From assembly GCF_014696435.1 (NCBI RefSeq), contig NZ_JACJQG010000004.1, forward strand, positions 124,001 to 188,000: 64,000 nucleotides of DNA. Reading direction: 5' to 3'. Under the pieces are notes generated by a model. The model saw only the letters and a list, made by a program, of their open reading frames with translations, searched no databases and was not told where the DNA came from. This DNA comes from Calothrix anomala FACHB-343. GTDB taxonomy: Bacteria > Cyanobacteriota > Cyanobacteriia > Cyanobacteriales > Nostocaceae. Made by a program: the position numbers and the translations under genes. Below are positions 5,620-55,057 of the stretch, piece after piece (the first letter of the stretch is position 1; each line of letters starts with the position of its first letter).

Positions 5620-6917
5620 AAAATACCCATACCCAACAGAATTTTAAAAAAATTTTTCTTTTTATATACAATGCTTGTTAATTTGTCAGCAGACAAAATT
5701 GGGGAATTATTCACTAGCAGTGTCATCCATATATCAATTGATAGTTATTTAGATAATTGATTGATAACTGAACTGCTAACAAAAATCCCTAAATTATCAA
5801 TGAAAAAGCGCGATAAAAGTTACGTCAGCAAAAATTCTGCTTGAGACAAATTTACTCAATGCTTTGACAAAATTCACAACTTGGAAGTCATACATTGACG
5901 GAGACGAATTCATTAGGCGATCGCTCAACTGACGCAAAAAGAATATTATTTGCAGTTACTATTAACAACTTTTATCCTCAAAATCAGGACTAGAGCCGCT
6001 AACTACAAAGAAAAAACTGTAACTTTTTCTCACAATTGCGTCAGTCTTCTAGGAATTCACCTGTGAAAGACTAGTAACCTGTCTTAAAAAAGCAATTAAG
6101 ACAGCTTGCACCTCGTCGATATAGGTACTTTGCAGTTGTAAACAATGTATTTACAAGATAGTTTCGGATACATAAGATGCCACCTGGGAAAAATTAGCTA
6201 GCCGAGTCGAAGGGGTTTAAATATAATGCTGCTGTTTAGGCTTCTACGTACACATACACAAGAATACTACGCATTTCATAGTTGCTTTGTCAAGAAATGG
6301 CAACTTGAAAAAGCCCGCTTATACGTTATTTACGGAATTCTTCACCATATCCTTAAAAAGTAAGTGCTATTTATAAAATTTTGGTAAAAGTCAGACCAAG
6401 CTAAATTCAGTAAATTGGATTTAACTGTATTATTTGCAACGTTTATTTATTCAGTATAAAAACTATAAAATAAAGTTAAGTATTGATTAATCTCAAGTTA
6501 AGAACATTATAAATAATTATGTAACTGCAAGTATAAGTCATATTAGCAAAGGATTTGAGCCGAATTTATTATTCCTTACCTATTTGTCTGTGTTTGTACT
6601 TTTCTATTTATATGTCTGCAATATCTACCTTAAGGATGAGGGCTTAAAAGGATATATATGGTATGCAATCTAATTAAACAGAGTTTTACAGCCGTAATCC
6701 AGAATTAGCGATCGCCTGGTGCTGAACTTTGATGAGTTGCTAGATTCCCTCGTTGATATCTTGCACTTACACCCTTAGGACTTACGCACCGAACACAAAA
6801 ACCCTCACAAGGGTAGTCAAAAGTCAAAAGTCAATGGCCAAAATTCAGATTTTTGGACTATGGACTATTGACCATTGACAAAAAGCATAAAAAATATCTG
6901 ACACTGCTTAAGTCCTA
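5620..6917. other. long intergenic region without a convincing gene
   Basis: About 1.3 kb upstream of the ABC exporter, AT-rich. I saw no conserved protein or structured RNA. A run of short repeats built on GTCAAAA/GACTATG-like heptamers lies at about 6815-6880, just before the first MITE copy. The exporter promoter must lie in the proximal part. Confidence 0.5.
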
Positions 6918-7078
6918 GGGAGCATCCCAATTTTGACGCAATACCCTAGAAGGGTATTGCTATACCAACAAAGCCTGCCTTCGCAGGCTATCAAACTTTT
7001 AGCCTGCGAAGGCAGGCTTCGTATTTCTAGCCCCACCCTTATAGGGTGAGGGCGTTTTTGCACATTTGGGATGCTCCC
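6918..7078. mobile_element. 161-bp MITE, copy 1 of 3
   Basis: The ends are perfect terminal inverted repeats (GGGAGCATCCCAA ... TTGGGATGCTCCC). Inside are three further hairpins, the largest a 19-bp inverted repeat around AAGCCTGCCTTCGCAGGCT. The element is flanked by a perfect 8-bp direct repeat, AAGTCCTA (6910-6917 and 7079-7086), a target-site duplication. It codes for nothing plausible. Near-identical copies lie at 35706-35866 and 54897-55057. Confidence 0.88.
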
Positions 7079-23945: not shown

Positions 23946-24020
23946 GTAGCCTTGTGCGGTGAAAGTCGCAAGCACGGTTTCGGATGGTAGGGGTGGAACA
24001 GCAATGTTCCCATCTACCCT
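23946..24020 (+). mobile_element. group II intron 3' relic (domains V and VI)
   Basis: Bases 23947-23981 fold as the 34-nt domain V hairpin: an AGCC start, a GAAA loop (GTGAAAGT), a two-base AA bulge and GCACGGTTT on the return strand. Bases 23984-24020 form a following hairpin with a GCAA loop, matching domain VI, and an A near 24012 sits 7-8 nt before the likely intron end as the branch point would. A T:C mismatch in domain V and the lack of any reverse transcriptase upstream show it is a dead fragment. Confidence 0.65.
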
Positions 24021-24163
24021 AGCTAAATTGTTCATAGTTTGCCTGTTGAGTTTGCTAACAAATTAGCGCTAAATTGTTACTCATAAGTTACTAACAGCTT
24101 TGCTGGAAATTTGAAACAGAGCAGAAGTTCTACTTTCCCAACAGTCGATTAATAATTTTGACC

Positions 24164-24745
24164 ATGACTCAGCCACAATTGAGTGAAAAAGTCCGAGAAT
24201 TGATTACAAAAGCCAGAATTGTCAGTTTTGCTACTTGGCAAAATACTCATACACCAGAGGCTATTCAGCTATTCCAGGCGGCTGATGATGAGGGACGGTA
24301 TCTCACCGATGAGGATTTGCAGCAGATTCAGCAGCTTGTACCTACACATACAGCGCTCATTCCTGTAAGTCAAGAACTACGCGATCGCGTCCAGGAAATC
24401 GTAGATGAAGCCAGAAGCCAAGTATTAACACAATTTCCCAACATCACTCAACCCGGTGGCGGACTCTATCCTTCAATTAGGGCAGAAGCTTGCTGGCGTG
24501 ATTTTTGGCACTTCCTGCGCTGTATTACTTACGGTATTGCTGGTCAACATACTGATTATACAAGCGCTGATGGATTACATTACATGCAACTGTTGTATCA
24601 AGAATTGCAAGTACCGTTAGATGCAATGGTGGTGGGGTTAGAAGGTATTAAAGCTGCTAGTTTAAAGCCAGTAAAACCAGAGCAGCAAGAAATTGTTGCA
24701 CCCTATTTTGATGGTTTGATTGAGCAATTAAAGTTATTTCGATAA
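24164..24745 (+). CDS. phycobiliprotein-like (phycobilisome globin-fold) protein
   Basis: A 193-aa protein with the phycobilisome globin fold. The bilin-binding region aligns with the conserved A-C-L-R-D helix of phycobiliproteins: SIRAEACWRDFWHFLRCITYG gives Cys110 and Asp113 in the right context, followed by the Y-G-I-A-G turn. It is longer than ApcA/CpcA and too divergent to be a core or rod subunit, so it is a stand-alone paralogue. I chose ATG 24164 over TTG 24158. It is convergent with pcyA, the gene that makes its likely chromophore. Confidence 0.75.
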   Translation: MTQPQLSEKVRELITKARIVSFATWQNTHTPEAIQLFQAADDEGRYLTDEDLQQIQQLVPTHTALIPVSQELRDRVQEIVDEARSQVLTQFPNITQPGGGLYPSIRAEACWRDFWHFLRCITYGIAGQHTDYTSADGLHYMQLLYQELQVPLDAMVVGLEGIKAASLKPVKPEQQEIVAPYFDGLIEQLKLFR

Positions 24746-24798
24746 ACTAGCTGGAAAATAGTGTTGACTGTTGACTGTTGACTGTTGACTGTTGAAAG

Positions 24799-24828
24799 AT
24801 CCCCGAATTCTTGGAGGAAGTCGGGGAT
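24799..24828. terminator. bidirectional terminator-like hairpin
   Basis: ATCCCCGA and TCGGGGAT form a stem between the convergent phycobiliprotein-like gene and pcyA. A heptamer repeat (TGACTGT) precedes it at 24763-24794. Confidence 0.55.
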
Positions 24829-24880
24829 ATGTAAATTGGCAAGGTAAATTTTTATTATGAAAAAGCTATAAATGACATTT

Positions 24881-25621
24881 TTAAGCTACATAGTCAAACA
24901 GCATTGTTGTCATGTAGCGATCTGCCCATTCTGTACCAAAGGATTTTTCGAGAACGCGCCGGGTTTTATCATTTTGTTGCTGTTTGGTACAGTAATTTCG
25001 TTGCCCTGCAAGTACTTTGGAAATATCTAGATTTGATGTGAGCGGTGTTTGTTGACTAGCAATTTGACAATGAATGGTTAAAAATTCCCGAACTCGGTTA
25101 AGAAATTTATCTTCTTCTTCAGGGTTTCCGGGACGAATAAATAAACAAAATTCTGAAAAGATATCACCCCACTCTGGTAAGGCGCGTGGTTGAGAAAACT
25201 CCAGCGCGGATAATACAGATAATTTTTGATAATAGCTAGATGGGAGAGTGCGATCGCTACTAATAGGAGACAAATCCGCGATCGCTGCACTAATTCCGCC
25301 TTTCCCGCCAACTAAATCTGTACCAAAGATGGGAATGGCATATTCAGGATTGGGGAACATGACACAATGGAGAATATCTAATCCATTGCCAACCTGAGCC
25401 AATTCTAAATGCAGTTTGCGAAATTGCGGCGTTTGGTAGCAATGATTTTCAATGATGAGCCGTTCGCCTTCTAAATGTCCCTCAACGTATCCTAAACCTT
25501 CAGGTACAGAGTAAGGTGACAAATCTAGATTTTTTTGCCAAATTTCTTCAATAGAATCGGCTAATCTGCGAATTAATTGATTTTGACGGTTTCTGATGGA
25601 GGCTGACATAGATTTCAACAT
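24881..25621 (-). CDS. pcyA: phycocyanobilin:ferredoxin oxidoreductase
   Basis: Reduces biliverdin IXalpha by four electrons from ferredoxin to phycocyanobilin, the chromophore of phycocyanin, allophycocyanin and phytochromes. Length 246 aa is typical. The catalytic residues known from Synechocystis (Glu76, His88, Asp105) are present as Glu73, His85 (DILHCVMFP) and Asp102 (FGTDLVGGKGG). ATG 25621 or 25609 could be the start. An L-box-like element lies 47-64 bp upstream of ATG 25621, in the gene's sense orientation, predicting red-light activation. A kinase and a response regulator lie upstream on the same strand. Confidence 0.95.
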   Translation of the reverse strand: MLKSMSASIRNRQNQLIRRLADSIEEIWQKNLDLSPYSVPEGLGYVEGHLEGERLIIENHCYQTPQFRKLHLELAQVGNGLDILHCVMFPNPEYAIPIFGTDLVGGKGGISAAIADLSPISSDRTLPSSYYQKLSVLSALEFSQPRALPEWGDIFSEFCLFIRPGNPEEEDKFLNRVREFLTIHCQIASQQTPLTSNLDISKVLAGQRNYCTKQQQNDKTRRVLEKSFGTEWADRYMTTMLFDYVA

Positions 25622-25667
25622 AGACTTCTCTGGAAAAAAGAATTAATATTTACCTTGGCGCATAGTT

Positions 25668-25685
25668 TGTGCAAAATTTGTGCAG
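25668..25685 (-). promoter_or_regulatory. L-box-like element upstream of pcyA
   Basis: On the minus strand this reads CTGCACA-AATT-TTGCACA, thirteen of fourteen consensus bases of the RcaC-bound L box (TTGCACA-N4-TTGCACA) known from Fremyella diplosiphon. It is in the sense orientation relative to pcyA, the arrangement associated with red-light activation. Confidence 0.7.
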
Positions 25686-25839
25686 AAGAATTAGCGAATG
25701 GGAAAATGGGCAAGTCAGCCCCTCATGAAAATCTCTCTTACCTAGTACATCACGGCGTAAATAAACATACCATTCCAAATCAGTGAAACGCTTACTCTGT
25801 CTTAATTTTGAATTTTGAATTTTGAATTTTGAATTGGTA

Positions 25840-26211
25840 TTACCAATGGAGAATTCTACTAATTTGCTCTGGGAGATCCAGGGAGTTAAAGGGTTTGGTA
25901 ATCACGCCACTCACGCCTAAATCATTAAACTGACGCTTTTCTGCTGTTTGTGCTTTAGCAGTTAACAGAATTACCGGAATTTGTTCGGTTTCTGAATGAG
26001 ATTGCAGTTCTTTAAAGGTAGCTATACCATCCATATCTGGCATCATCACATCCAACAGAATTACATCAGGTTTTTGAGTTTGTGCAGTCTGGATACCTTC
26101 AAAGCCGGAACTAGCCGTGAATACTTCCCATCCCGCCGCCATTTTGATGCCGAATTGCACAACGGTTTGAATTGTTTCTTCGTCATCAATAATTAAAATT
26201 CGCTTTTCCAT
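25840..26211 (-). CDS. single-domain response regulator (CheY-like)
   Basis: A 123-aa receiver domain without output domain. Acidic pocket Asp9-Asp10-Glu11, phospho-acceptor Asp54 (ILLDVMMPD), conserved Thr (LLTAKA) and Lys (TKPFN) are all present. It starts 10 bp after the histidine kinase stop, so the pair is one operon and a likely cognate pair. pcyA lies 218 bp further along on the same strand. Size and lack of output domain recall RcaF, but similarity alone cannot make that assignment. Confidence 0.9.
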   Translation of the reverse strand: MEKRILIIDDEETIQTVVQFGIKMAAGWEVFTASSGFEGIQTAQTQKPDVILLDVMMPDMDGIATFKELQSHSETEQIPVILLTAKAQTAEKRQFNDLGVSGVITKPFNSLDLPEQISRILHW

Positions 26212-26221
26212 AAATTACCCC

Positions 26222-28345
26222 TCATGAAATCTGGGTGCTGTCAAGGGTAGGTAATGTGAAGGCAAAGGTACTGCCACAACCTGGAGTACTCTCAGCCCAA
26301 ATTCTGCCGTTGTGCTGTTCAATAATTTTGCGGCAGATTGTTAACCCTAAACCAGTACCACCTTTTTTCCGGGAATCTGACGAATCGACTTGTTGAAATC
26401 GTTCAAAGATTCGTTCAAGTTGATCGGCGGGAATACCTTGCCCTTCGTCTCGTACCCGAAATACCACTTCTTTGGGGAAGTTTGGGGAAGTTTGTTCGGC
26501 TTCTACAGTCAGCCAAACAGTTCCCCCTGGTGATGAAAACTTGATAGCATTGCTAATTAAATTTGTTAAAGCTTGTAAGATATAATCGGCATCTGCCCAA
26601 ACTGAGATATCTTGGGGTTGTTTAACTAAAGTGATTTCTTGCTGTTGTGCCATTGCTTGCATTGCCTCTGCTGCTTGGATCGTCAAATTAGCTGCATTAC
26701 AGGCTTGACACTCCATGATCACTTTACCAGACTCAATGCGCTGTAAATCAAGGACATTGTTGACTAAGCGTACTAAGCGTTCAGTGCTATCATCGGCAAT
26801 GCCTAGCATTTGTTGCCCTTCTGCGGAAAGATTGCCCAATCGCCCTGTAGCTAAGATTTTCAGGGCACTGTGCAAGGAAGTCAGGGGTGTGCGCAATTCA
26901 TGACTGATGATCGAAATAAATTCATCTTTCATCCGTTCAATGGCTTTGCGATCGCTAATATCGCTACTTAAAGCGAAAAATCCCTTCACAGCATTCTGCT
27001 CATCAACATCAGGGATGTAAGTCACATCAACGGCTCGCGAACTGCCATCTTTTAAAACGATATCATTTTCATAGTTAACGGCTTGCCCAGATAAAGCTCT
27101 TTGTACATAAACTTGCATTCTGTGGTAGCAATCTTCGCCCCAAACCTGTTGCAGGTGAGAACCATAAATTTCTTTGGGGGATTGTCCCAGCCAATCTTGA
27201 TATGCTTGATTGTTAAAGCGATATTGTTGGCGATCGTCTACATAAGCAATTAGTACAGGCAAGGCATTAGTTATTAAGCGCAGTTGCTCCTCACTCTGTC
27301 GTAACGCTGCTTCCGCCTGCATCCGCACGTTAATTTCCTCTTGTAACTCTGAAGTTCTGGCGGCGACTACTTCTTCTAAGCGTTCTAAAAGTTGAGCTTG
27401 AGATAAGGCAATACTAATTTGATCGGCTAACTGTTGCATCAATTCCAATTCAAAATCTACCCAATGGCGGTAGTTATTGCATTGATGGGCGATTAATAAG
27501 CCCCAAAGCTGATTTTGAGCGCTAGCATTGAGATTTTGGACGATGGGGACAATTAATTTCGCTTTAATCGCAAATTGATCGACAAATTCCACCAAACAAT
27601 CTGCCAAACCAGCTGCCGGATCGTGAACATTCGCGATCGCTCTTACCCGTCCTTGAGCATACAATTGTTGATATTCCTGGGGAAAAACTTCTTGGGGAAA
27701 TTCCAGATCCATGAGTGTGGGGTAATCTGGTAACACCGATTCGCTGATGGTTTTGCCTGTACCATCCGGCAATACATGATAAATTAGCACGCGATCGGCT
27801 TGGAGAATCCGTTGCACTTCCGTCACGGTGGTATGCAGAATTTCCTTGAGTTGTAACGACTGACGAATTTTCAGCGTCACTTCCGAAAACAATTCCACCC
27901 GTTGCTGTTGCTGGCGTAATTCCGCTTGCATCGATTCCCGACGCTGACTAATGTCTCGCAACAGCAGTAAATGACAACGGGGAAGAACATTTGGCGTTAA
28001 AGTATATTCCACCTCTCGCCGACGTTGGCTAGCAGATGCAACTAACAGTTCCCCAATCAATGATTCTTTTGGTAGACAACTCACAGACTTGAGTTGACGA
28101 GTAAATTCTGCAGTAATGAAATTAGATAAAGCTTGTCCTTGGAGTTGCTTGCGGGTTCGTCCGAGTAATTCACAAGCAGCAATATTTAGATCTAGGAAAA
28201 ATCCGCGATCGTCAATTAGGGCGATCGCGTCACGGGCGTTTTTATATAAACTGTTGAGCAGACGCTTGTGAATGCGTCGTTTCTGTTTCGACTTTTTCCC
28301 GCCAAATAGCGATCGCTGCTTATAAGAACGTTTTGACACCTGCAT
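26222..28345 (-). CDS. PAS-GAF-PAS histidine kinase with cyanobacteriochrome-like GAF
   Basis: A 707-aa soluble sensor kinase. PAS at about 32-135; GAF at about 150-318; second PAS at about 350-465; HisKA with His482 (IISHELRTPL); HATPase with N, G1 (DEGQGIP) and G2 (GGTGLGL) boxes to about 700. The GAF domain has the phytochrome/cyanobacteriochrome pattern (DRVLIYHVLPDGTG, GRVRAIA, LWGLLIAHQC) and keeps Cys250 at the bilin-attachment position, but the usual following His is Leu (ADCLVEF). It may therefore bind a bilin in an atypical way. The partner regulator follows by 10 bp. Confidence 0.88.
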   Translation of the reverse strand: MQVSKRSYKQRSLFGGKKSKQKRRIHKRLLNSLYKNARDAIALIDDRGFFLDLNIAACELLGRTRKQLQGQALSNFITAEFTRQLKSVSCLPKESLIGELLVASASQRRREVEYTLTPNVLPRCHLLLLRDISQRRESMQAELRQQQQRVELFSEVTLKIRQSLQLKEILHTTVTEVQRILQADRVLIYHVLPDGTGKTISESVLPDYPTLMDLEFPQEVFPQEYQQLYAQGRVRAIANVHDPAAGLADCLVEFVDQFAIKAKLIVPIVQNLNASAQNQLWGLLIAHQCNNYRHWVDFELELMQQLADQISIALSQAQLLERLEEVVAARTSELQEEINVRMQAEAALRQSEEQLRLITNALPVLIAYVDDRQQYRFNNQAYQDWLGQSPKEIYGSHLQQVWGEDCYHRMQVYVQRALSGQAVNYENDIVLKDGSSRAVDVTYIPDVDEQNAVKGFFALSSDISDRKAIERMKDEFISIISHELRTPLTSLHSALKILATGRLGNLSAEGQQMLGIADDSTERLVRLVNNVLDLQRIESGKVIMECQACNAANLTIQAAEAMQAMAQQQEITLVKQPQDISVWADADYILQALTNLISNAIKFSSPGGTVWLTVEAEQTSPNFPKEVVFRVRDEGQGIPADQLERIFERFQQVDSSDSRKKGGTGLGLTICRKIIEQHNGRIWAESTPGCGSTFAFTLPTLDSTQIS

Positions 28346-28624
28346 CTATCTGCAAAAGGACTATTTTCATTCTTTACTGAACTTATCTAAAGTTCAAATG
28401 TGATTAAGTTAATGTTGGAAAATTTAACATTTTGGAATAGTCTTCAAATATCAAGCTAATAACATTACAAGTGTTAGCAAGCGATCGCAAAAGCGCAAAA
28501 CTATAACTTTATTTACAACTAAATTAATTATGTTGATTTTTTGATTTTTTCGCGCCAAATTGTGATATCAAAACCGTAGATTCAATTTGATAGACTGAAA
28601 GCATTGATTAGGCTAAGTTGATCT

Positions 28625-29257
28625 ATGACTGTTGCTATCAACCAAGCAATACAACAGAAGCCTCTCAGCTTTGAAGACTTTATCGCCAATTATGGTGACG
28701 AAAACCGCTATGAATTGATTGATGGAGAGGTATTTGACTTGGAACCAACAGGCTTGCATGAAGAAGTTGCAGCCTTGATTACTACCAAAATCTGCGTGCA
28801 AATCGACAGCGCAGACTTACCTTGGTTTGTCCTTCAGCGAGGACTCTTGCGCCCTGCTAACATTGGGATGACAGCATTTCGTCCAGATGTTGCATTTATC
28901 GATAGAAATGAACTTACCAAAGAACCGCTTTGGTACGATCAATCAATCCTAACGCTGGGAAGTTCGATTAAATTTGTTGCGGAAGTTGTGAGTAGCAACT
29001 GGCAAAATGATTATGCCCGTAAAGTTGAAGACTATGCAGTTTTAGGTATTCCCGAATATTGGATTGCTGACTACGCAGGTAATGGTGGTATTCGATATAT
29101 CGGTAAACCCAAACAACCTACCCTCTCTATCTGTACTCTCGTGAATGGGGAGTATGAAATTCAACAGTTTAGAGATAATCAAACTATCGTCTTGCTGACT
29201 TTCCCAGAATTAAAATTGACGGCTGAACAGGTTTTACAGGCTGGTAAAATTATTTAA
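28625..29257 (+). CDS. Uma2-family (DUF820) restriction-endonuclease-like protein
   Basis: A 210-aa PD-(D/E)XK-fold protein of the family greatly expanded in filamentous cyanobacteria. The pattern NRYELIDGEVFDLEPTG, then FRPDVAFID and FVAEVVSSNWQNDYARKVEDY supplies the D...E-x-V core; IPEYWIADY follows. The biological role of the family is not established, and copies are often carried as cargo near mobile DNA. It is a complete, stand-alone gene. Confidence 0.88.
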   Translation: MTVAINQAIQQKPLSFEDFIANYGDENRYELIDGEVFDLEPTGLHEEVAALITTKICVQIDSADLPWFVLQRGLLRPANIGMTAFRPDVAFIDRNELTKEPLWYDQSILTLGSSIKFVAEVVSSNWQNDYARKVEDYAVLGIPEYWIADYAGNGGIRYIGKPKQPTLSICTLVNGEYEIQQFRDNQTIVLLTFPELKLTAEQVLQAGKII

Positions 29258-29261
29258 GCTC

Positions 29262-29341
29262 ATACCAATTTGAACAAAGAAGACGACAGATTTTAGGGGC
29301 ATAGCATTATTGCCCACCTGTGTCAACTTAACGCGAAACCC
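29262..29341. repeat. partial copy of the ATACCAATT foldback family
   Basis: About 80 bp align with the left arm of the element at 43797-44096, sharing ATACCAATT, TAGGGGCA and GTGTCAACTTAACG.GAAACC. The right arm is missing, so this is a decayed half-element. Confidence 0.6.
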
Positions 29342-29520
29342 CCATTTCATCTAGCTCCCATGCTCTGCCTCAATTTATCAGCTTTCGAGGCAGCAGCCCA
29401 CGAATATGCATTCCCAGCCTCCGGCTGGAAACGAGATAATCAAATTTGAATCCTATATGACAAATTACTAAAGTATAAGATAGAACTTTTAGAGGTGAGA
29501 TTTTACTAGATGATATAGCA

Positions 29521-30054
29521 ATGCAAGAAAGAACCGATGTGATTGAGTGTACAGATACAAAAATTATTATTAATAATTCTTATTCTCTAATATTAACTAC
29601 TGTGCATACTATCTTATTTTGCTTTTTAATACTTTTTGGCATTTTTTTGGTTGCAACACCCCCTGCCAACCCTGACTCTTTTCAAGCATACTTAAGTTTA
29701 TCAGGCTTCTTGTTAACTACACTTAAAGGTAATCCAGCTATTTTATGTGTGAAGCTTGCTGGTTTGTTTTGTATTTTGCTGAGTACTTTTGCATTATCTG
29801 TAAAAAAGCCCAACCTGGTAACCTTTGTCCGTGAACAAGCCAAGATTATAATTAGCGGACGTAGTTGGTTTGGCGTTATCCCCTATCAACAAGTTATTCC
29901 ATTTAATCAAGTCGTTAGCAAGAATATTTCCAAAAATCACTCTGTTGTGATTTTACCATTAAAGTCTGGGAAAATGGTCTTTATTGGTAATATTGTTGAA
30001 TTAAAAGTGATTGATGCAATTATTGCTATAGTTCAATACAAATCCTCTGAATAG
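29521..30054 (+). CDS. two-helix membrane protein of unknown function
   Basis: A 177-aa protein with two membrane helices (about 26-45 and about 75-93) and a C-terminal cytosolic domain of beta strands (ITISGRS-like, YQQVIPFNQVVSKNISKNHS). The layout recalls small PH-like membrane proteins, but no family is recognised. Low GC compared with its neighbours. Confidence 0.6.
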   Translation: MQERTDVIECTDTKIIINNSYSLILTTVHTILFCFLILFGIFLVATPPANPDSFQAYLSLSGFLLTTLKGNPAILCVKLAGLFCILLSTFALSVKKPNLVTFVREQAKIIISGRSWFGVIPYQQVIPFNQVVSKNISKNHSVVILPLKSGKMVFIGNIVELKVIDAIIAIVQYKSSE

Positions 30055-30154
30055 TGCAGATCAGTATTGAGATATTATGAGGATAAAATCTTTAACTACA
30101 ACTTTTGCTTGATTGCTAACATATTTGCGATCGCTGTAATTATCCTGAACCTAA

Positions 30155-30631
30155 ATGCTTAATCAATTTCCAGGGCGAATGCTGCTCTCTCACAACTTTA
30201 ATGTTTCTCCTGATACCATACCCGCCCTCAGTCGCGAAGAATTTGTGGAGGTTTTTCAATCAGGTTTGAGTGCCCATGAAAACCTAAAATGTAGACTGGT
30301 GAATCATCCCCATTGGACTGTAGAAATTTTATTCCCCACCAATGAATTTTCGCCGCAGCAAGTAGGCGAACTCTGTGCCCAAGCCCTAGCCGAGAAGCGG
30401 AGATTACAGCAATTAAGTACAGGAAATAAACCAGAAATTTTAGTTTTAGGTGGTATCAAAACAACTCCACCTACTAGTGATTCTCCTGATGCGTTGCAAC
30501 CGGGCAACTGGGGTGTGGATGTAGTCGAAACTGCATCTGGCGAGGCATTTTTGCAGGCGATCGCCTGGGATGCTACCATTGCTCAAAAACCCGCAGATAG
30601 TATCTTCAAAGTTGAACTTAAGAAAGCTTAA
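30155..30631 (+). CDS. conserved hypothetical soluble protein
   Basis: A 158-aa protein with no signal or membrane segment. It alternates charged helix (VGELCAQALAEKRRLQQLS) with beta-rich segments (PEILVLGGIKTTPP; NWGVDVVETASGEAFLQAI). I do not recognise a family. Codon use and composition match surrounding genes. A stand-alone unit upstream of the ankyrin gene. Confidence 0.6.
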   Translation: MLNQFPGRMLLSHNFNVSPDTIPALSREEFVEVFQSGLSAHENLKCRLVNHPHWTVEILFPTNEFSPQQVGELCAQALAEKRRLQQLSTGNKPEILVLGGIKTTPPTSDSPDALQPGNWGVDVVETASGEAFLQAIAWDATIAQKPADSIFKVELKKA

Positions 30632-30908
30632 GCAAATAATTACTAGTACTTTTGCAAGTCATCTTTGCTGGGTGAATCATTTTTTTACTTCTCTTCTTTA
30701 CCTCTTTCTTAGCGCTCTTCGTGTCTTCGTGGTTCGTTTCTTTAGCCCTTAAAGTTGAGTTGTCAGAGTACTAGTTCGTAGTTCGTAATTAAAATCAAGA
30801 CTAGCAAGCATACCAATCCAAGACTAATGATGGTTCAAGAAGCTCACAATAAGTTGTAACGTTGTAACTACGAACTACGAATTACGAATTACGAATTATT
30901 AATTACCA

Positions 30909-31613
30909 ATGCCTTCTCTCAACGAAGATTTGATTCGCGCGATCGTTAAAGGTGATATTGCGACTGTAGAAAGCTTATTAGCCCAAGGTGCAGATGCTAA
31001 TACCACCGGAGGCGTGACAGCCTTGGGAGCCAGTAATACAGCATTAATGTGGGCAGCTAGTGAAGGTTATTTCGAGATTGTGGAATTACTGCTAGCTCAT
31101 AATATTGATATCAATGTCAAAAATCCCACAGGTTACACAGCCTTAATGTTTGCCGCAGAAGGCGATCGCCGCAATATTGTATCGTTGTTGCTAGATAGTG
31201 GTGCGACTATTGGCGATCGCAATTCCTATGGCGAGACTGTGCTGATGACAATGGCAAGACGCGGACAAACAGATATTGTGCAACGTCTAGTTAAAATGGG
31301 TGCTGAAATCAATGCCACCAATAACATCGGTGACACAGCCTTATACTTAGCAGCCGATAATGGGCATACATACACCGTCAAGGCATTAATTGAACTAGTA
31401 GCACAAGTAAATACAGAAAACCTCGGTGGTTGGACTCCCCTCATGATGGCAGCCGCCAGGGGCGATTTAGAAACTATGAAAATTTTGCTAGCACATGGCG
31501 CAGACTTTCGCCCCAAAAATCGCTGGGGTGCCACAGCCTTGAGTGAAGCCCGCAATTCCTTTCGTGCAGCGCAAGCAGCAGATTTATTAATCCAAGCAGG
31601 AGCGACAGAGTAG
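30909..31613 (+). CDS. ankyrin-repeat protein
   Basis: A 234-aa protein made almost wholly of about six 33-residue ankyrin repeats, each with the TALM-x-AA(x)G...IV-x-LLL...GA pattern (for example NTALMWAASEGYFEIVELLL and TPLMMAAARGDLETMKILLA). It has no enzymatic domain and presumably binds a protein partner. The bases just before the start are ACGAATT-type tandem repeats. Confidence 0.9.
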   Translation: MPSLNEDLIRAIVKGDIATVESLLAQGADANTTGGVTALGASNTALMWAASEGYFEIVELLLAHNIDINVKNPTGYTALMFAAEGDRRNIVSLLLDSGATIGDRNSYGETVLMTMARRGQTDIVQRLVKMGAEINATNNIGDTALYLAADNGHTYTVKALIELVAQVNTENLGGWTPLMMAAARGDLETMKILLAHGADFRPKNRWGATALSEARNSFRAAQAADLLIQAGATE

Positions 31614-31622
31614 GACAATTGT

Positions 31623-31644
31623 AGAGACGCGATTCATCGCGTCT
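31623..31644. repeat. short palindromic repeat, copy 2
   Basis: Same GACGCGATTCATCGCGTC core as at 19411-19433; followed by GCCCAAT heptamers to about 31695. Confidence 0.7.
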
Positions 31645-31706
31645 TTGATCAATGCCCAATGCCCAATGCCCAATGCCCCATGCCCCATGCCCAATAAATA
31701 ATCATT

Positions 31707-31724
31707 TGTGCAAACCGAGTGCAA
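31707..31724 (-). promoter_or_regulatory. reversed L-box-like element upstream of cpeC
   Basis: The plus strand reads TGTGCAA-ACCG-AGTGCAA; the minus strand is TTGCACT-CGGT-TTGCACA, thirteen of fourteen consensus bases of the Fremyella L box. It is opposite in orientation to cpeC, as reported for the cpeC promoter where RcaC binding represses in red light. It lies 258 bp before the cpeC start. Confidence 0.7.
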
Positions 31725-31737
31725 AAGTCTCTCATTT

Positions 31738-31761
31738 CATCAAGATTTACAAATCTTGATG
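31738..31761 (+). promoter_or_regulatory. perfect 11-bp inverted repeat in the cpeC leader region
   Basis: CATCAAGATTT and its exact complement are separated by two bases (AC). It lies 13 bp after the L-box-like element and could be an operator or, if transcribed, a leader stem-loop. In Fremyella a leader inverted repeat in cpeC is needed for the second (Cgi) green-light pathway. Confidence 0.6.
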
Positions 31762-31981
31762 CACATCTTTACTCGGTCGTAAGAAAATGATCATAACAAA
31801 GCGTATAAAACGCTAAGAAGCTTAATCGCCCAGGACATTACAACTTTCATGTTTATGGAAGCTGGAAATTTTGCTTGCAACAAATCAATCCCACGATTTG
31901 ATTTACCTAGACGATTAATCTGAATTTAATTTACAAATTGAAACATTTTTCTTAAACTTTCGTTAACAGGAGAAACAGTTA

Positions 31982-32842
31982 ATGCCATTTGGACCAGCTT
32001 CACGCTTGGGAGTTAGCCTCTTCGATGAAACCCCTCCCGTTGAGTGGGTACCAGGCCGCTCCCAAGAAGAAGCCGAAACATTCATTAAGGCAGTCTATCG
32101 GCAAGTATTGGGCAATGCCTATGTAATGGAAAGCGAGCGTCTCGTTGTGCCCGAATCGCAATTTAAGTTGGGTGAATTGAGCGTCCGCGAGTTTGTCAGA
32201 GCCGTGGCTAAATCCGAACTTTATCGTTCTCGCTTTTTCACCAGTTGTGCGCGCTACCGGGCGATTGAACTCAATTTTCGCCATTTATTAGGTCGGCCAC
32301 CACTGGATTTAGAAGAAATGCGCGCCCACAGCACAATTCTAGATACTCAAGGGTTTGAAGCGGAGATTGATTCTTACCTCGACAGCGATGAGTATCAGTC
32401 CACCTTTGGGGAAAACATTGTTCCCTATATCCGAGGCTATAAGACAGAAGCTTGTACCAGCATGGTGCAATTTACCCATACCTTCCAACTGGTGCGGGGT
32501 GCTTCTAGCAGCAGCTTGAAGGGTGACTTGTCTGGTAAGGCTCCCAAGTTGAATGCCCTAGTGATTCAAGGTATTCCCACACCAGTAGTCTCACCTGCTA
32601 GTAAGGGTGCAGTGTTCTCTAGTCGTCCCACTGGTTCCGTTACTCGTCTGGGAGTCGATGGCAGTGCAGGTGGTAAAGTTTATCGCGTTGAAGTCACAGG
32701 TTATCGCGCCAAAACCTTCAACAGTATTTCCAAGTTCCGCCGTTCCAACCAAGTCTTTTTGGTGCCCTACGATAAGCTCTCCCAAGAATATCAACGGATT
32801 CACCAACAAGGCGGCGTAATTGCCAGCATCACTCCTGTCTAA
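31982..32842 (+). CDS. cpeC: phycoerythrin-associated rod linker CpeC
   Basis: Rod linker that joins phycoerythrin hexamers in the phycobilisome. A PBS-linker domain occupies about 25-175 (the core is VREFVRAVAKSELYRSRFF and IELNFRHLLGRPP), and a CpcD-like domain about 225-285 (VYRVEVTGYRAKTF...QVFLVPYDKLSQEYQ). Length 286 aa and the opening MPFGPASRLGVSLFDETPP match CpeC of Fremyella as I recall it, distinguishing it from CpcC. An AGGAGA site precedes the ATG. First gene of a cpeC-cpeD-cpeS-cpeT-cpeR series, with L-box-like control upstream. Confidence 0.88.
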   Translation: MPFGPASRLGVSLFDETPPVEWVPGRSQEEAETFIKAVYRQVLGNAYVMESERLVVPESQFKLGELSVREFVRAVAKSELYRSRFFTSCARYRAIELNFRHLLGRPPLDLEEMRAHSTILDTQGFEAEIDSYLDSDEYQSTFGENIVPYIRGYKTEACTSMVQFTHTFQLVRGASSSSLKGDLSGKAPKLNALVIQGIPTPVVSPASKGAVFSSRPTGSVTRLGVDGSAGGKVYRVEVTGYRAKTFNSISKFRRSNQVFLVPYDKLSQEYQRIHQQGGVIASITPV

Positions 32843-32882
32843 ACCAGCTGACAACTTAGCAAAATAGAGGAGATAGATTTCA

Positions 32883-33632
32883 ATGACATCCCAGACAATT
32901 CTTGAACTTTGGCCGAATAGCAGCTTAGAGGAAGTTCAAACTATCATCCGTGCAGTTTACAAACAAGTTTTAGGCAACCCTCATGTCATGGAGAGTGAGC
33001 GGTTGGTGACAGCAGAATCACAATTGTGCGATCGCTCTATCTCTGTACGGGAATTTGTTCGCGCCGTTGCGAAGTCTGATTTTTATCGCAATCGCTACTT
33101 CTCGTCCTGCGCTCCCTATCGGTTTGTGGAACTGAACTTCTTACATTTGTTAGGACGCGCACCCCAAGATCAACGGGAAGTTTCCGAGCATATTGTTCGG
33201 ACTGTAGCCGAAGGCTACGATGGGGAAATTGATTCCTACATCGATAGTAATGAATACGAAACAGCCTTTGGCGAAAACATCGTACCCTACTATCGCGGTA
33301 AGAATAGCGCTGCTAACTCCAAGCAAGTAGGCTACAACCGGATATTTGCCCTCGATCGCGGCCCTGCTCAAATTGACAGCGCGGTTAAATCTGCTCAATT
33401 GGTGTATGCTGTAGCCACCAACAGCGCCAATGCGATTCAACCCTCTTCATCAACTGTGATTGGTTCTGGCACAGAAAAACGGTTCAAAATTTTGGTCAAG
33501 GGTAGCAAATTTGATAGCCCCCGCCGCATTAGTACTACAGAGTACATTGTTCCAGCTAGTAAGATGACTCCACAAATTCAACGGATTAATCGGACTTCTG
33601 GCAAAATCATCAGCATTACTGAAATTGTTTAA
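32883..33632 (+). CDS. cpeD: phycoerythrin-associated rod linker CpeD
   Basis: A second PBS linker, 249 aa (about 28 kDa), matching the 27.9-kDa phycoerythrin linker of Fremyella in size and in its start (MTSQTILELWPNSSLEEVQT). PBS-linker domain at about 15-165 (VREFVRAVAKSDFYRNRYF; VELNFLHLLGRAPQD) and CpcD domain at about 195-245. It follows cpeC by 40 bp with a GAGGAG ribosome site, so the two are cotranslated from one mRNA. CpeE is the alternative name to exclude; no third linker is present. Confidence 0.82.
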   Translation: MTSQTILELWPNSSLEEVQTIIRAVYKQVLGNPHVMESERLVTAESQLCDRSISVREFVRAVAKSDFYRNRYFSSCAPYRFVELNFLHLLGRAPQDQREVSEHIVRTVAEGYDGEIDSYIDSNEYETAFGENIVPYYRGKNSAANSKQVGYNRIFALDRGPAQIDSAVKSAQLVYAVATNSANAIQPSSSTVIGSGTEKRFKILVKGSKFDSPRRISTTEYIVPASKMTPQIQRINRTSGKIISITEIV

Positions 33633-33667
33633 GCTCATCCTGCCCCTTCTAGGGGCAGGATGAGCTT
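33631..33667 (+). terminator. strong hairpin at the end of cpeD
   Basis: A perfect 17-bp stem with a TCT loop begins inside the cpeD stop codon (arm AAGCTCATCCTGCCCCT). No T-run follows, so it could be an mRNA-stabilising or attenuating structure that separates cpeCD from cpeSTR rather than a full terminator. A second hairpin (GGGTGGGC-AAT-GCCCACCC) lies at 33796-33814. Confidence 0.65.
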
Positions 33668-33891
33668 CAGTAGTCAGTAGTCAGTTGTTTTCTTTACCAC
33701 TGACCACTGACCAATGACCAATGACGCGGCGGGGAGAGCAACCTCGCTACCCCTTGAAGGGGCAGGCTTCCCGCTGCCTTTGGTAATGTTTAACCGGGTG
33801 GGCAATGCCCACCCTCAATAATTAAGCTTTTTAATCAAAAATTGTGCCAAAAATCACTGAAAAATCTCCCATTGCAAACACCAAAGAGTTG

Positions 33892-34422
33892 ATGAATATT
33901 ACAGAGTTTGTGGCAAATTCTCTAGGGCGTTGGCGATCGCAACGCAGCGCCCATCATTTAGCATTCAGCCACTTTGAAGCCGTACAGTCCGAGATAGATA
34001 TTATCGCTCTCCCAGAAGACGATCCAGCAGTGATTGACTTATGTAAAAGCTATAACATCGATCCGCAGACGGCAGTTTCCCCATTTCGCATGAGTTGGGA
34101 AGGGCAATCAGACTGGGATGACAATGAAATCAAAGGTAGCTGTATTCTCGTTCCCATTCCCGATCCTACCGATCCCCAACGCGGTAAACTCCTGCGCGAT
34201 CAAGGCTATGCAGAAACCATCGCGGCTGCTGGCGACTATTACTTAACAGAAGACGGCACATTTGTCCTGACTACCGCCTACGATCGCGCCGCCGCCGAAG
34301 AAAAAATTTGGTTTGTTAACCCCAATGTACGTTGTCGGGTTTCCCTAATTAAAACCAGCGCTGGTTCGGGAGTTGTCACAGCTTCCTTTTCTTCAGAAAT
34401 CCGCCAGGGTGTTCAAAGTTAA
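33892..34422 (+). CDS. cpeS: phycobiliprotein lyase, CpcS/CpeS family
   Basis: Lipocalin-fold lyase that attaches a bilin to a phycoerythrin cysteine. The start MNITEFVANSLGRWRSQRSA is the usual CpeS opening (E/F...G-x-W-x-S-Q-R), followed by the family's beta-barrel with WFVNPNVRCRVSLI near the end. I prefer ATG 33892, preceded by AAAGAG, to the in-frame GTG at 33844, which would add 16 residues unlike the family. Between cpeD and cpeT, where it sits in Fremyella's cpeCDESTR operon. Confidence 0.88.
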   Translation: MNITEFVANSLGRWRSQRSAHHLAFSHFEAVQSEIDIIALPEDDPAVIDLCKSYNIDPQTAVSPFRMSWEGQSDWDDNEIKGSCILVPIPDPTDPQRGKLLRDQGYAETIAAAGDYYLTEDGTFVLTTAYDRAAAEEKIWFVNPNVRCRVSLIKTSAGSGVVTASFSSEIRQGVQS

Positions 34423-34672
34423 GTTAGCCATCCACCATAAAATCTCACACCAAAGCATGAAAATCTCTCTTAAGAGTCAACAGTCAACAGTCAACAATCA
34501 ACGATAGATCCAAAAATACAGCACTAGTCATTTCTAGTCATATAGATACAACATCAAAACGTGCAGTTTCAATACATACTGATCGCGTTAGCTTTGCTAT
34601 GTCATTTTTCACAAATTAAGGTCATCATTTGAAATTTTCATTCTCCTATTGTTTATTTATCCTCATTTAGTT

Positions 34673-35296
34673 ATGACCTCTTCAATACCACATATTTGCG
34701 AAACTGTATCTAATGATTTAATTACCTTAGCTCGTTGGATGGCAGGTGATTTCAGCAATTATAAACAAGCATACGAAAACCCTAAAGATTACGCCCATAT
34801 TCATGTTTTCTTTCGCCCTTTAGCCTTTGAATTCTTCTCAGGAATTGGGCTTTATTCCGAACAAGTTTATGACTATGATTTGTGGCGACCTTATCGACAG
34901 GGGGTACATCGTTTAGTCGATCAAGGCGACCAAATTTATATCGAAAATTACAGTTTAAAAAACCCTCTTTTATATGCTGGTGCAGCCCGCGAATTAAGCA
35001 TTCTCAAAACTATCACCCCAGATTGTATAGAACGCCGATATCACTGCTCAATGATTTTCCAACGCGAGGGAGATAGATTTATTGGCGGTGTGGAACCGGG
35101 AAACTTATGCTTAATCGAAAAAAATGGCTGTCAGACTTATCTCCACAGTTACGTTGAAATCACGCAAACCACTTGGGTAAGCCTTGATAGAGGGCTGGAT
35201 GTAAATACACACGAGCAGGTTTGGGGGTCTACCTTTGGGCCTTTGCGGTTTGAAAAAAAGGAGAGTTTCGCTGATGAAATTCCAAACATCCTATGA
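34673..35296 (+). CDS. cpeT: chromophore lyase, CpcT/CpeT family
   Basis: A 207-aa CpcT/CpeT protein. In this family the lyase attaches a bilin to Cys-beta155/165 or acts as a chaperone during phycoerythrin assembly. Family segments are visible: LARWMAGDFSNYKQA at the start, HIHVFFRPL, SEQVYDYDLWRPYRQGVHRL, and the Cys/Gly region FIGGVEPGNLCLIEKNGCQTYL. An upstream in-frame TTG at 34649 is possible, but ATG 34673 fits the family. The 3' end overlaps cpeR by 23 bp. Confidence 0.9.
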   Translation: MTSSIPHICETVSNDLITLARWMAGDFSNYKQAYENPKDYAHIHVFFRPLAFEFFSGIGLYSEQVYDYDLWRPYRQGVHRLVDQGDQIYIENYSLKNPLLYAGAARELSILKTITPDCIERRYHCSMIFQREGDRFIGGVEPGNLCLIEKNGCQTYLHSYVEITQTTWVSLDRGLDVNTHEQVWGSTFGPLRFEKKESFADEIPNIL

Positions 35297-35636
35297 AACT
35301 TCTCTAGCCAATCTGGGCATTAAGCCGAATATGCTACCCCCAGAAGCACAGAAAAAAATGCAATGCTGGATTCGCAGCAGACATTTAATTTGTTCTGGCA
35401 ACTTCTTTGTTTTTGAAACTGTAGATTACAGTGCGATTGAGCGTTTTTCTCAATGTGTGGGTGCCTTAGGAGGTACTGTGATTTCTGTCGATCCAATTGA
35501 CAAAATTTGGATGGGCGCTCATCGTCAAGTAATTCTTTATCGGGCAAGAGCTAGTTTGCATACACCTTGCCACAATTTGAAACAATATTGGCTGAAATAT
35601 GGAGGTTTTCGCACCCGATTTGATGAGCAAGTTTAA
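35274..35636 (+). CDS. cpeR: phycoerythrin operon activator CpeR
   Basis: A 120-aa protein starting MKFQTSYETSLANLGIKPNM, in the position of cpeR in Fremyella (last gene of cpeCDESTR). There CpeR is required for green-light expression of cpeBA and pebAB. It has no recognisable DNA-binding motif. The ATG at 35274 has a strong AAGGAG site 10 bp upstream, inside cpeT, whose end it overlaps by 23 bp, which implies translational coupling. Upstream in-frame start 35235 is rejected. Confidence 0.82.
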   Translation: MKFQTSYETSLANLGIKPNMLPPEAQKKMQCWIRSRHLICSGNFFVFETVDYSAIERFSQCVGALGGTVISVDPIDKIWMGAHRQVILYRARASLHTPCHNLKQYWLKYGGFRTRFDEQV

Positions 35637-35686
35637 TTGATTTGCTAGATATCAAATCAGATGAAGTCTACTAAGGTGTTGCATAA

Positions 35687-35923
35687 TTGACACTCCCCCG
35701 CTAATGGGAGCATCCCAATTTTGACGCAATACCCTTCTAGGGTATTGCTATACCAACAAAGCCTGCCTTCGCAGGCTATCAAACTTTGAGCCTGCGAAGG
35801 CAGGCTTCGTATTTCTAGCCCCACCCTTATAGGGTGAGGGCGTTTTTGCACATTTGGGATGCTCCCCCTGCTAATTGCTTTCCTTTGGAACGCTCCGCAA
35901 ACGCAATTTAGGGGGAGATTCTT
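35687..35923 (-). mobile_element. IS200/IS605-type right-end relic split by a MITE
   Basis: Read on the minus strand, the two parts join to give AAGAATCTCCCCCTAAATTG ... AGCGGGGGAGTGTCAA, the hairpin-plus-TCAA end seen after the tnpB gene at 39300-39332. The 161-bp MITE interrupts it. No transposase remains. Confidence 0.6.
35706..35866. mobile_element. 161-bp MITE, copy 2 of 3
   Basis: Same terminal repeats and internal hairpins as at 6918-7078. The flanks CCCGCTAAT (35697-35705) and CCTGCTAAT (35867-35875) form a 9-bp target duplication with one mismatch. Inserted within an IS605-type right end. Confidence 0.88.
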
Positions 35924-36208
35924 GCTTCTCAGAAACACGCACTGCCTCTTTTTGGCACAGTTTTCGCGAAATGTGGGTAGTAATAATTAGCTTTGTGAGA
36001 GAGGTGAGGATGCAAAGTATGAGACCCATACGCCGAAAATTTCATCGCAGATATGGGTTCATTTTATGGAAAAGATGGGTAATTGCAAATGTAGTTGCAG
36101 AGATTTTCAATTGATTAATCATACAGTTAGGGGCACAATATTTTGTGCCCCTGGGATATCTGTGTATAATTTTATCGCGCTTCCCTAAATAGGTGAAAAA
36201 CCGAGTAA
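35924..36208. other. intergenic, no gene seen
   Basis: Follows the mobile-element debris. A small hairpin around GGGGCAC...GTGCCCC (about 36130-36152) lies downstream of the FKBP gene and may end its transcript. Confidence 0.4.
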
Positions 36209-36730
36209 TTATTGAATACCTAGCAATTCCACTTCAAATACTAGGGTAGCATTAGGCGGAATTACACCACCAGCACCACGAGCGCCATAACCTAAATCTG
36301 GGGGGATAATTAACTTACGGCTACCACCAACTTTCATGGTGCTAAGTCCTTCATCCCAACCTTTGATGACTCGTCCAAGACCGAGCGGAAAGCTGAAAGG
36401 TTGACCGCGATCGCGCGAACTGTCAAACTTTGTACCATCAGTTAAAGTTCCGGTATAGTGAACTACAACCGTTTGTCCCTTTTTTGGAGTCTCCCCGGTT
36501 CCTTCTTTTAGTTCAACATATTGCAGCCCAGAATCGGTAGTCACGGTATTGGCGTCAGACATAATATTGCTCGCAATCAAATTATTGTTTTCAGTAATAG
36601 TAGTGGGTGCTGGTGCAGTGTCAGTGAGATTAGCCGCAATAGCAGAGTCCTGTTTACTACCAATTTGCGCTAATACTAACACCACAACACATACCAGCAT
36701 TAACCCAACGCTGAGTAAAATCGCTTTCAA
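36209..36730 (-). CDS. FKBP-type peptidyl-prolyl cis-trans isomerase
   Basis: A 173-aa exported foldase. An N-terminal hydrophobic anchor or signal ([20 protein letters not shown]) and a Thr/Asn-rich linker precede an FKBP domain at about 68-173. Active-site residues are clear: [36 protein letters not shown], then [20 protein letters not shown]. It starts at TTG, preceded by a strong GGGAGG site. It probably acts in the periplasm or thylakoid lumen. Confidence 0.92.
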
Positions 36731-36805
36731 AATTAAGCCTCCCTATATGGCTAATGTGTCTCAGTTTGACTAACAGGACACAATTAGTAAATCACAAAGG
36801 ATGTC

Positions 36806-37129
36806 TTAACGCCAAAGCTTATTTTCTAAATCCCGTACTTGCCGTTCTAAACGATCGATTCTACCGCGTAATTCATCTACTTCTGATTGTCGCGCTACGC
36901 CTAAATCTTGCATCATGTTCCGCATTTGTCGTTGCATTTGCGCTTCCCAAGTTCCCTGTTCCGATCGCAACTGCTGTGCAATATCATCCATTACAGCTTT
37001 GGCTTGTTCAGGATTGAGCTTACCATCTTTAACCAGTTCGTCGCCCACTTGTCGCAGTTTATCTGCTACTAAAGATGTTGTACCAATACCAAGCATTAAT
37101 AACTGCTGCATCCAATTGTTATTATCCAT
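36806..37129 (-). CDS. phasin-like coiled-coil protein
   Basis: A 107-aa protein, helical throughout, ending in a leucine-zipper-like coiled coil (SEVDELRGRIDRLERQVRDL). The layout (short hydrophobic start QQLLMLGIGTTSLVADKL, then a K/E-rich helix and a C-terminal coiled coil) resembles PhaF/phasin-like or UbiK-like small proteins found in most cyanobacteria. Function not known. Confidence 0.65.
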   Translation of the reverse strand: MDNNNWMQQLLMLGIGTTSLVADKLRQVGDELVKDGKLNPEQAKAVMDDIAQQLRSEQGTWEAQMQRQMRNMMQDLGVARQSEVDELRGRIDRLERQVRDLENKLWR

Positions 37130-37885: not shown

Positions 37886-39253
37886 TTGCTAACAAACTAT
37901 GTATACAAACTCAGACCAAATGCAACACAATCAACAAAAATGAGTAATTGGGTAGATATGCTCAGAAGTCACTATAACTGGTGTCTTAATGACCGATTAA
38001 CCCAATATGCTCAACAATTTATTATGGGTGAATATTGTGATATAAGGACTAAAGCTGAAGCTTGTCCGCTTACTTGTTTTGTTAGCAAGAATGGTGCAAC
38101 GGGTGAACCTTGGAAAGAAAGTAAAATCGATAAAAAAGGTAATCCTGTAAATCCACGCCGTAATGCTGGAATGATTCAAGATGCTGCACTACCAGAGCTT
38201 AAAAAAGCTAGACCTTGGTTTGCTGGCATTGACTCAACAGCGTTGCAACAAAATATTAAAAGACTAGATAAAGCCTATGAGAACTTTTTTGACGGTCGTG
38301 GATTCCCAAAATTCAAAAATCGTTCTAATTTCACATCTTTCACGATGACGATGGGTATTAAAATCCAGAAAAATAAAATCTATCTACCCAAATTAGGCTG
38401 GATGAGATTTTATCATTCTCGTCAAATACCCGATGGATTCACAATAAAAGCAGCAACAATTCGCAAGCGTCAAGATGGTTGGTACATATCATTAAGAATT
38501 GAAGATAAAACCATACCTGACTATGTTTCTAGTCCATTGACTAATGTTAAATCAATCCTTGGTTGTGATTTAGGCTTAACAAAATTGGTACATCTTTCTG
38601 ATAATTCTCAAATTGATAATCCAAGGTTTGCAACCAACAAAAAGACAAGACGCACTTTAAAACTACGTCAGCGTCGTATTAGTCGCAAAGTCAAAGGTAG
38701 TGTTAACCGCAAGAAAGAAACCAAAAAAATAGGCAGACTTCATAAGAAAATCGCTGATAAGCGTCAAGCTAGAGAGTGGAAAGTTGCGAATAAAATAATT
38801 TCTAGAAATGTTGATGCAATTGCTATTGAAGATTTAAATGTATCAGGGATGATGAGACGCTGCAAAGTTAAAGTAGACTCAACTACTGGCAGGTTTTTAA
38901 GCAATGGTCAATCTAGAAAGAAAGCATTAAATCGGTCTATTTCTGATGCAAGTTGGAGTGATTTGACTTTAAAAATTGAGTATCTGGCTGCAAAGCAAGG
39001 AAAGGTCGTAATTAAGGTTAATCCTAAGCACTCTAGCCAAGAATGCCGTAATTGTGGTCATGTGGACAAATCTAATAGAGACGGTGAAAAATTCATCTGT
39101 GTTAAATGTGGACACATGACACATGCTGATATTGGAGCGGCTAAAACCATCAGAGATAGAGCATTTGATATGGTACGTGGGGACTCCGCGAAACCTAAAC
39201 GCCCGAAACAACGTAAGGAGAAATCAACACGCACTCCCGTGCAAACGTGTTGA
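37886..39253 (+). CDS. tnpB: RNA-guided endonuclease TnpB (IS200/IS605 OrfB)
   Basis: A 455-aa TnpB, ancestor-type of Cas12. The RuvC triad is intact: Asp228 (GCDLGLTK), Glu315 (AIEDLNVSGM) and Asp415 (HADIGAAK). The zinc ribbon Cys387/390/405/408 (CRNCG ... CVKCG) is complete. It starts at TTG 37886 behind a very strong AGGAGGTGAT site; TTG starts are common in this family. TnpB uses a guide RNA from the element's right end to cut vacated donor sites. Nothing suggests decay of this protein. Confidence 0.93.
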   Translation: MLTNYVYKLRPNATQSTKMSNWVDMLRSHYNWCLNDRLTQYAQQFIMGEYCDIRTKAEACPLTCFVSKNGATGEPWKESKIDKKGNPVNPRRNAGMIQDAALPELKKARPWFAGIDSTALQQNIKRLDKAYENFFDGRGFPKFKNRSNFTSFTMTMGIKIQKNKIYLPKLGWMRFYHSRQIPDGFTIKAATIRKRQDGWYISLRIEDKTIPDYVSSPLTNVKSILGCDLGLTKLVHLSDNSQIDNPRFATNKKTRRTLKLRQRRISRKVKGSVNRKKETKKIGRLHKKIADKRQAREWKVANKIISRNVDAIAIEDLNVSGMMRRCKVKVDSTTGRFLSNGQSRKKALNRSISDASWSDLTLKIEYLAAKQGKVVIKVNPKHSSQECRNCGHVDKSNRDGEKFICVKCGHMTHADIGAAKTIRDRAFDMVRGDSAKPKRPKQRKEKSTRTPVQTC

Positions 39254-54896: not shown

Positions 54897-55057
54897 GGGA
54901 GCATCCCAATTTTGACGCAATACCCTAGAAGGGTATTGCTATACCAACAAAGCCTGCCTTCGCAGGCTATCAAACTTTTAGCCTGCGAAGGCAGGCTTCG
55001 TATTTCTAGCCCCACCCTTATAGGGTGAGGGCGTTTTTGCACATTTGGGATGCTCCC
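54897..55057. mobile_element. 161-bp MITE, copy 3 of 3
   Basis: Same element as at 6918-7078. A perfect 9-bp target duplication, AGTTAATTT, flanks it (54888-54896 and 55058-55066); the first base is the last base of the FHA gene stop codon. Confidence 0.9.

Follow-up and report, generated by a model that had tools for sequence, protein, structure and literature searches.

Regulatory elements upstream of cpeC

The DNA directly upstream of cpeC in Calothrix anomala FACHB-343 raises the question of whether the phycoerythrin linker operon cpeCDSTR is under light-colour control and, if so, through which of the elements that precede it. The initial annotation of this locus singled out two, a reversed L box and a nearby palindrome, and read them together as a signature of type III chromatic acclimation, with RcaC repressing cpeC from the L box in red light and the palindrome serving in the leader of the second (Cgi) green-light pathway. 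We examined the window, i.e., the whole 64,000-nucleotide stretch (G000:C79:124001-188000), together with the remainder of the genome and the cpeC loci of relatives. The features discussed are collected in Table 1.

Table 1. Genes and sites of the cpeC and rcaE regions (window positions unless another contig is given)
Feature	Position	Strand	Basis or remark
pcyA, bilin reductase	24881..25621	-	Fe_bilin_red
Forward L box of pcyA	25668..25685	-	1 mismatch; 46 nt before ORF
rcaF-like single-receiver protein	25840..26211	-	123 aa, Response_reg only; named by position (directly behind rcaE) and size
rcaE, green/red photoreceptor kinase	26222..28345	-	PDB 7ckv (RcaE), E 9.5e-94, residues 164-325
L box (candidate RcaC site)	31707..31724	-	TTGCACT-CGGT-TTGCACA on minus strand
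Palindrome	31738..31761	.	arms 31738-31748 and 31751-31761; right arm overlaps predicted -35
Predicted -35, TTGATG	31756..31761	+	inside right arm; alignment of relatives
Predicted -10, CGTAAG (weak here)	31778..31783	+	16 bp behind -35; alignment of relatives
Most conserved upstream block, GATCATAACAAAGCGTATAAA	31789..31809	+	near predicted transcription start
Conserved stretch before and through cpeC ribosome-binding site	31938..31974	+	alignment of 27 regions
cpeC, phycoerythrin-associated rod linker	31982..32842	+	PBS_linker_poly and CpcD domains; ATG 31982
cpeD, second rod linker	32883..33632	+	PBS_linker_poly and CpcD domains
cpeS-like gene	33844..34422	+	CpeS
cpeT-like gene	34649..35296	+	CpeT
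Probable cpeR	35235..35636	+	position and sequence reading; no Pfam match
rcaC	G000:C58, L116:7233-9179		domains REC, DNA-binding, Hpt, REC

A reversed L box precedes cpeC

Both elements are present as the initial annotation had described them: an L box on the minus strand, reversed relative to cpeC (TGTGCAA-ACCG-AGTGCAA as read on the forward strand), and, 13 bp past it, a perfect 11+2+11 inverted repeat. The L-box consensus is TTGCACA-N4-TTGCACA, from which the cpeC site departs by 1 mismatch. When up to one mismatch was allowed, the window held two matches, one before cpeC and one before pcyA, compared with 0.08 expected, and none of 100 shuffles reached two. At up to 3 mismatches, 16 matches were found vs 8.78 expected, and these looser matches are therefore mostly due to chance. 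Across the 9.24-Mb genome, we counted 8 matches with at most one mismatch and none with a backward control; three of the eight precede pigment genes (cpc2, pcyA and cpeC), while the remaining five do not visibly do so.

The cpeC L box stops 31 bp short of the predicted -35 hexamer, placing the site at about -83 to -66 from the predicted transcription start near 31790. A reversed L box located farther from the transcription start has been described as the repressing layout (PMC8256508), though that paper's main text does not name cpeC, and our literature search on the L box found no paper with both cpeC and RcaC. Altogether, the reading of 31707-31724 as an L box is well supported, and this half of the annotation holds up and is now stronger.

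To place the site in a wider context, we compared the upstream region of cpeC in the window with those of 79 further loci (80 in all, up to 600 bp each, L093 and L098 being shorter), in a set from which F. diplosiphon's own cpeC region is absent. An L box with at most 2 mismatches was found in 26 of the 80, and in all 26 it was reversed. Exact L boxes numbered 42, in 24 of 49 genomes, with a backward control yielding 0. Within 30 fetched loci there were 35 distinct exact sites, 25 of them with pcyA or cpcB within 700 bp and 10 with neither; every one of the 25 that could be assigned to pcyA or cpcB was forward. This clean orientation rule, forward at pcyA and cpc and reversed at cpeC, can help in calling red-activated vs red-repressed genes.

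RcaC and RcaE were sought in the 49 genomes, which derive from 50 loci chosen out of the 79, including every locus with a cpeC L box (L027 is missing), and RcaE was scored as present at an identity of at least 68%, plus a partial match in G018. The cpeC L box and RcaE were found together in 21 genomes, RcaE only in 9, the L box only in 3 and neither in 16 (Fisher p = 3e-4); for an exact L box anywhere in the genome, the respective counts were 23, 7, 1 and 18 (p = 8e-7), both p-values being too small because the genomes are related. The three loci with a cpeC L box but without a found RcaE belong to Nostoc CHAB 5784, 5715 and 5714 (L033, L034 and L059). In none of them was RcaE matched at E 1e-100 or an exact L box found at any other place; two gave no RcaC match at 1e-50, and the third matched in the DNA-binding region only. 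The L box may be a relic there, the assemblies may have a gap, or another protein may bind the site. Conversely, RcaE was present without a cpeC L box (at most 2 mismatches, 600 bp) for L040, L044, L045, L051, L053, L055, L056, L058 and L076, the RcaE of L044's genome being partial; these genomes may have either another route to cpeC light control or a diverged site. Both groups count against the reading proposed below.

The genome encodes RcaE, RcaC and an RcaF-like protein

The annotation had proposed a search for rcaE, rcaF and rcaC, with a missing RcaC counting against its reading; our genome search found rcaE, an rcaF-like gene and rcaC all present. The annotation had not pointed out that the sensor gene itself lies in the window. 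RcaE is identical to the solved RcaE domain of PDB 7ckv at 148 of 159 positions (about 93%, counted from the printed alignment with three tag residues excluded), which marks the strain as closely related to F. diplosiphon but distinct from it. rcaC was picked from 25 Trans_reg_C matches, 6 multi-domain candidates being domain-scanned, of which the chosen protein alone has two receivers and not three. In three relatives (G005, G006 and G011), orthologues with 81-83% identity adjoin rcaE. Here, rcaC lies on contig C58, apart from rcaE in the window on C79.

Directly upstream of rcaC (L116:9176-9469 on G000:C58; L232:13132-13425 in Calothrix brevissima NIES-22) the 3' termini of rcaE (residues 649-706, 55-59% identity) and of rcaF (residues 90-123, 65-71%) persist as remnants, and behind rcaC stands a second pcyA (pcyA2), 85% identical to the window's pcyA. 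An rcaE-rcaF-rcaC-pcyA cluster thus seems to have been duplicated and then split by reciprocal loss, the copy beside cpeC having seemingly kept rcaE, rcaF and pcyA and the other rcaC and pcyA2.

As for the phycobiliproteins, translation reading of the genome revealed two cpcBA sets and one cpeBA set. One of the cpcBA sets, the second phycocyanin operon (cpc2), has a perfect forward L box upstream, and TTTAATCA stands 10 nt behind the forward cpc2 L box in 13/13 printed rows. Judged by sequence, the window and the genome together carry the genes and sites of type III chromatic acclimation, which is a known kind of system. Beside pcyA, at 24158-24745 (+), there is also a lone Phycobilisome-domain protein (PF00502), encoded outside the cpc and cpe operons, that looks like an orphan allophycocyanin-type subunit.

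The palindrome overlaps the predicted cpeC promoter

The palindrome reads CATCAAGATTT-AC-AAATCTTGATG, and its end lies 220 nt from the cpeC ATG. Perfect inverted repeats of this kind (arms of at least 11, loop of up to 6) occur in the window in 11 registers at 6 sites, compared with a mean of 0.15 and a maximum of 2 in 60 first-order Markov sequences; the palindrome thus exceeds simple chance, yet so do five other sites in the window. Relatives have it, like the L box, at the corresponding position upstream of cpeC, and arms of at least 9 of the same sequence were found in 10 of the 80 cpeC upstream regions.

The predicted promoter was derived from an alignment of 30 rows (L048, L090 and L094 were dropped from 33). 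In the aligned order, AAATCTTGAY comes first; after a gap of 16 bp stands a -10-like hexamer (18/30 rows have TATAAG or CATAAG), and GATCATAACAAAGCGTATAAA comes next, which puts the predicted transcription start downstream of the palindrome. Since the predicted -35 falls on the right arm, the palindrome is probably upstream of the transcript. A simple promoter scan of 31614-31990 did not list the predicted cpeC promoter and returned one other site, vs 1.4 expected; this and the weak -10 of the window speak against the prediction.

Conservation across the alignment was uneven: the mean per column was highest, at 1.90 bits, for the last 15 positions of the block, followed by 1.65 for the right arm and 1.23 for the left, with 0.88 for the spacer and 0.64 for the flank preceding the palindrome. 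Of the 30 rows, 25 retain the TTGA of the -35 and five (L038, L040, L045, L053 and L056) break it, while AAATCTT mostly stays, and for this reason the right arm may be conserved on some other account. The block, as AACAAAGCGTATAAA, was present in 33/80 regions at up to 3 mismatches. Both the right half-site and this near-invariant block persist in phycoerythrin producers, whether or not an RcaE or an L box was found there (e.g., L033, L034, L038 and L059). Within the genome it is single-copy, with no further match at up to 3 mismatches (control 0), and neither the block nor the palindrome was found in the cpeBA stretch L230 at up to 4 mismatches. We know of no factor assigned to these two conserved cpeC promoter elements besides the L box. 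It is conceivable, albeit unlikely, that the right half-site and the block GATCATAACAAAGCGTATAAA form an Rca-independent cpeC control element for a regulator still to be named, one through which the second green-light pathway might act at the DNA level or in the 5' leader.

We also asked whether the two arms vary in concert, using 26 distinct rows and dealing out the right arms at random. No arm covariation was detected: 212/286 cells paired vs 210.7 (sd 3.2) in the shuffled sets, and 791 of 2000 shuffles did as well. This result bears on the possibility that the palindrome is a dimeric operator that covers the -35 and serves an additional regulator beside RcaC. Such an operator would fit the conservation of the left arm above that of the upstream flank, the palindrome of the more distant Lyngbya HA4199-MV5 (L047), which is perfect or nearly so, and L040, whose 10-bp arms are changed in sequence in both while keeping their symmetry. 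However, besides the overall lack of covariation, the palindrome has no close second copy elsewhere in the genome, where only two places matched, at 3 mismatches (control 1), and we know of no regulator for it. We consider the operator rather unlikely, and favour the palindrome as promoter DNA whose right arm carries the -35. An HLR1-like reading of the right arm (the RpaB motif) was dropped, as the second half does not fit, and the palindrome core was not matched exactly in viral contigs.

The palindrome is not at the position expected of a Cgi leader element

In F. diplosiphon, the Cgi pathway reportedly works as an attenuation mechanism that requires a stem-loop ~31 nt ahead of the start codon, and it involves one of the two IF3s. 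The annotation had assigned the palindrome to this pathway, which would place it in the cpeC leader as an RNA hairpin. The 24 nt alone do fold as RNA (-9.7 kcal/mol), and the genome has two IF3_N (infC) genes, though this is a genome-level trait and uninformative on the palindrome. Against the hairpin, the palindrome precedes the predicted promoter, its right arm holding the -35; it lies 220 nt rather than ~31 nt before the ATG; arms of its sequence are confined to the 10 regions mentioned above; and its arms pair no better than shuffled ones. The symmetry as such is not maintained, and therefore a leader hairpin is quite improbable. By its position and the missing covariation, we rejected the palindrome as a conserved RNA hairpin, and this half of the annotation was probably misassigned, the palindrome looking like part of the promoter rather than an RNA switch.

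The leader closer to cpeC has a conserved part of its own. The last 40 nt before the gene are sequence-conserved over 27 regions; RNAalifold returned neither pairs nor a consensus fold around the ribosome-binding site, and single-sequence folds differ between relatives. If the reported position of the Cgi stem-loop holds, the Cgi part would be near 31938-31974, not at 31738-31761. No known RNA family was found in 24000-37000 at gathering score.

Further downstream, between cpeD and cpeS, a G+C-containing inverted repeat with perfect arms of 17+17 bp encloses a 3-nt loop (33631-33667); it may act as an attenuator or terminator and so determine how strongly cpeSTR is expressed. Three near-identical elements (6943-7047, 35731-35835 and 54922-55026), with inverted repeats of 47-48 nt, resemble a small dispersed mobile element, and a 455-aa ORF at 37886-39253 (+) appears to encode a TnpB-type transposon protein, having a zinc-finger motif towards its end.

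A model of cpeC control

The G-box half-site CTTTNCNATTT occurs once in the window, at 6599 and not near cpeC (exact matches only). This, together with the presence of rcaE, rcaC and the rcaF-like gene as well as of forward L boxes at pcyA and cpc2, makes it highly improbable that cpeC is mainly under CcaS/CcaR (type II) with the L box as a leftover, even though L033, L034 and L059 have L boxes without a found RcaE and PMC9415938 lists C. brevissima NIES-22, the nearest named relative, with CcaS as well as RcaE.

Taken together, these findings suggest that the cpeCDSTR promoter is under type III chromatic acclimation and that the palindrome is promoter DNA rather than a Cgi leader hairpin, a reading to which we assign a probability of about 0.8. 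In red light, RcaE would pass phosphate via RcaF to RcaC, and phosphorylated RcaC would bind the reversed L box and repress cpeCDSTR; in green light, RcaC would leave and cpeCDSTR would be transcribed. RcaC would also activate pcyA and cpc2 from forward L boxes close to their promoters, and the right arm of the palindrome would contribute the -35 and a conserved half-site. Binding, phosphorelay, repression and the transcription start are all inferred here. Of the type III signature originally proposed, the L box with its Rca gene and site set is thus retained, and the palindrome as Cgi leader element is not. The sequence predicts that this relative of C. brevissima changes its pigment with light colour, and the L box is now separated from two other conserved cpeC promoter elements.

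Comparison with known systems

The Rca system and the cpeCDESTR promoter are those of Fremyella diplosiphon (Tolypothrix PCC 7601). C. anomala resembles it in the GAF domain of RcaE (about 93% identical), in having an rcaF-like gene and rcaC, and in its L boxes at cpc2, pcyA and, reversed, cpeC. It differs in having no cpeE, with no ORF of at least 90 aa between cpeD and cpeS, and in that rcaC is on another contig than rcaE.

Among the 79 cpeC loci, the closest is that of C. brevissima NIES-22 (L026, G001), with CpeC 98%, RcaE 99% and RcaC 97% identical and the same reversed L box and palindrome. By genome prediction, this strain is listed as CA1/CA2/CA3 in PMC9415938. In NIES-22, cpc2 directly follows rcaC-pcyA2 (L232), whereas here it is on another contig with other neighbours (C58 and C115; L116 and L122), which we read as a sign that these two closely related strains differ by a rearrangement.

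A reversed cpeC L box is likewise found in Pseudanabaena sp. SR411 (L079), with 1 mismatch, though nearer the start codon (-198) and with an RcaE match of 74%; for this strain, RcaE, RcaF and RcaC have been reported and CA3 was shown by pigment measurement (PMC11377992). Lastly, the layout before cpeC resembles that of pebAB in Synechococcus PCC 7335, where, according to PMC8256508, a reversed L box farther from the transcription start goes with RcaC repression in red light; the gene behind the reversed L box is pebAB there and cpeC here.
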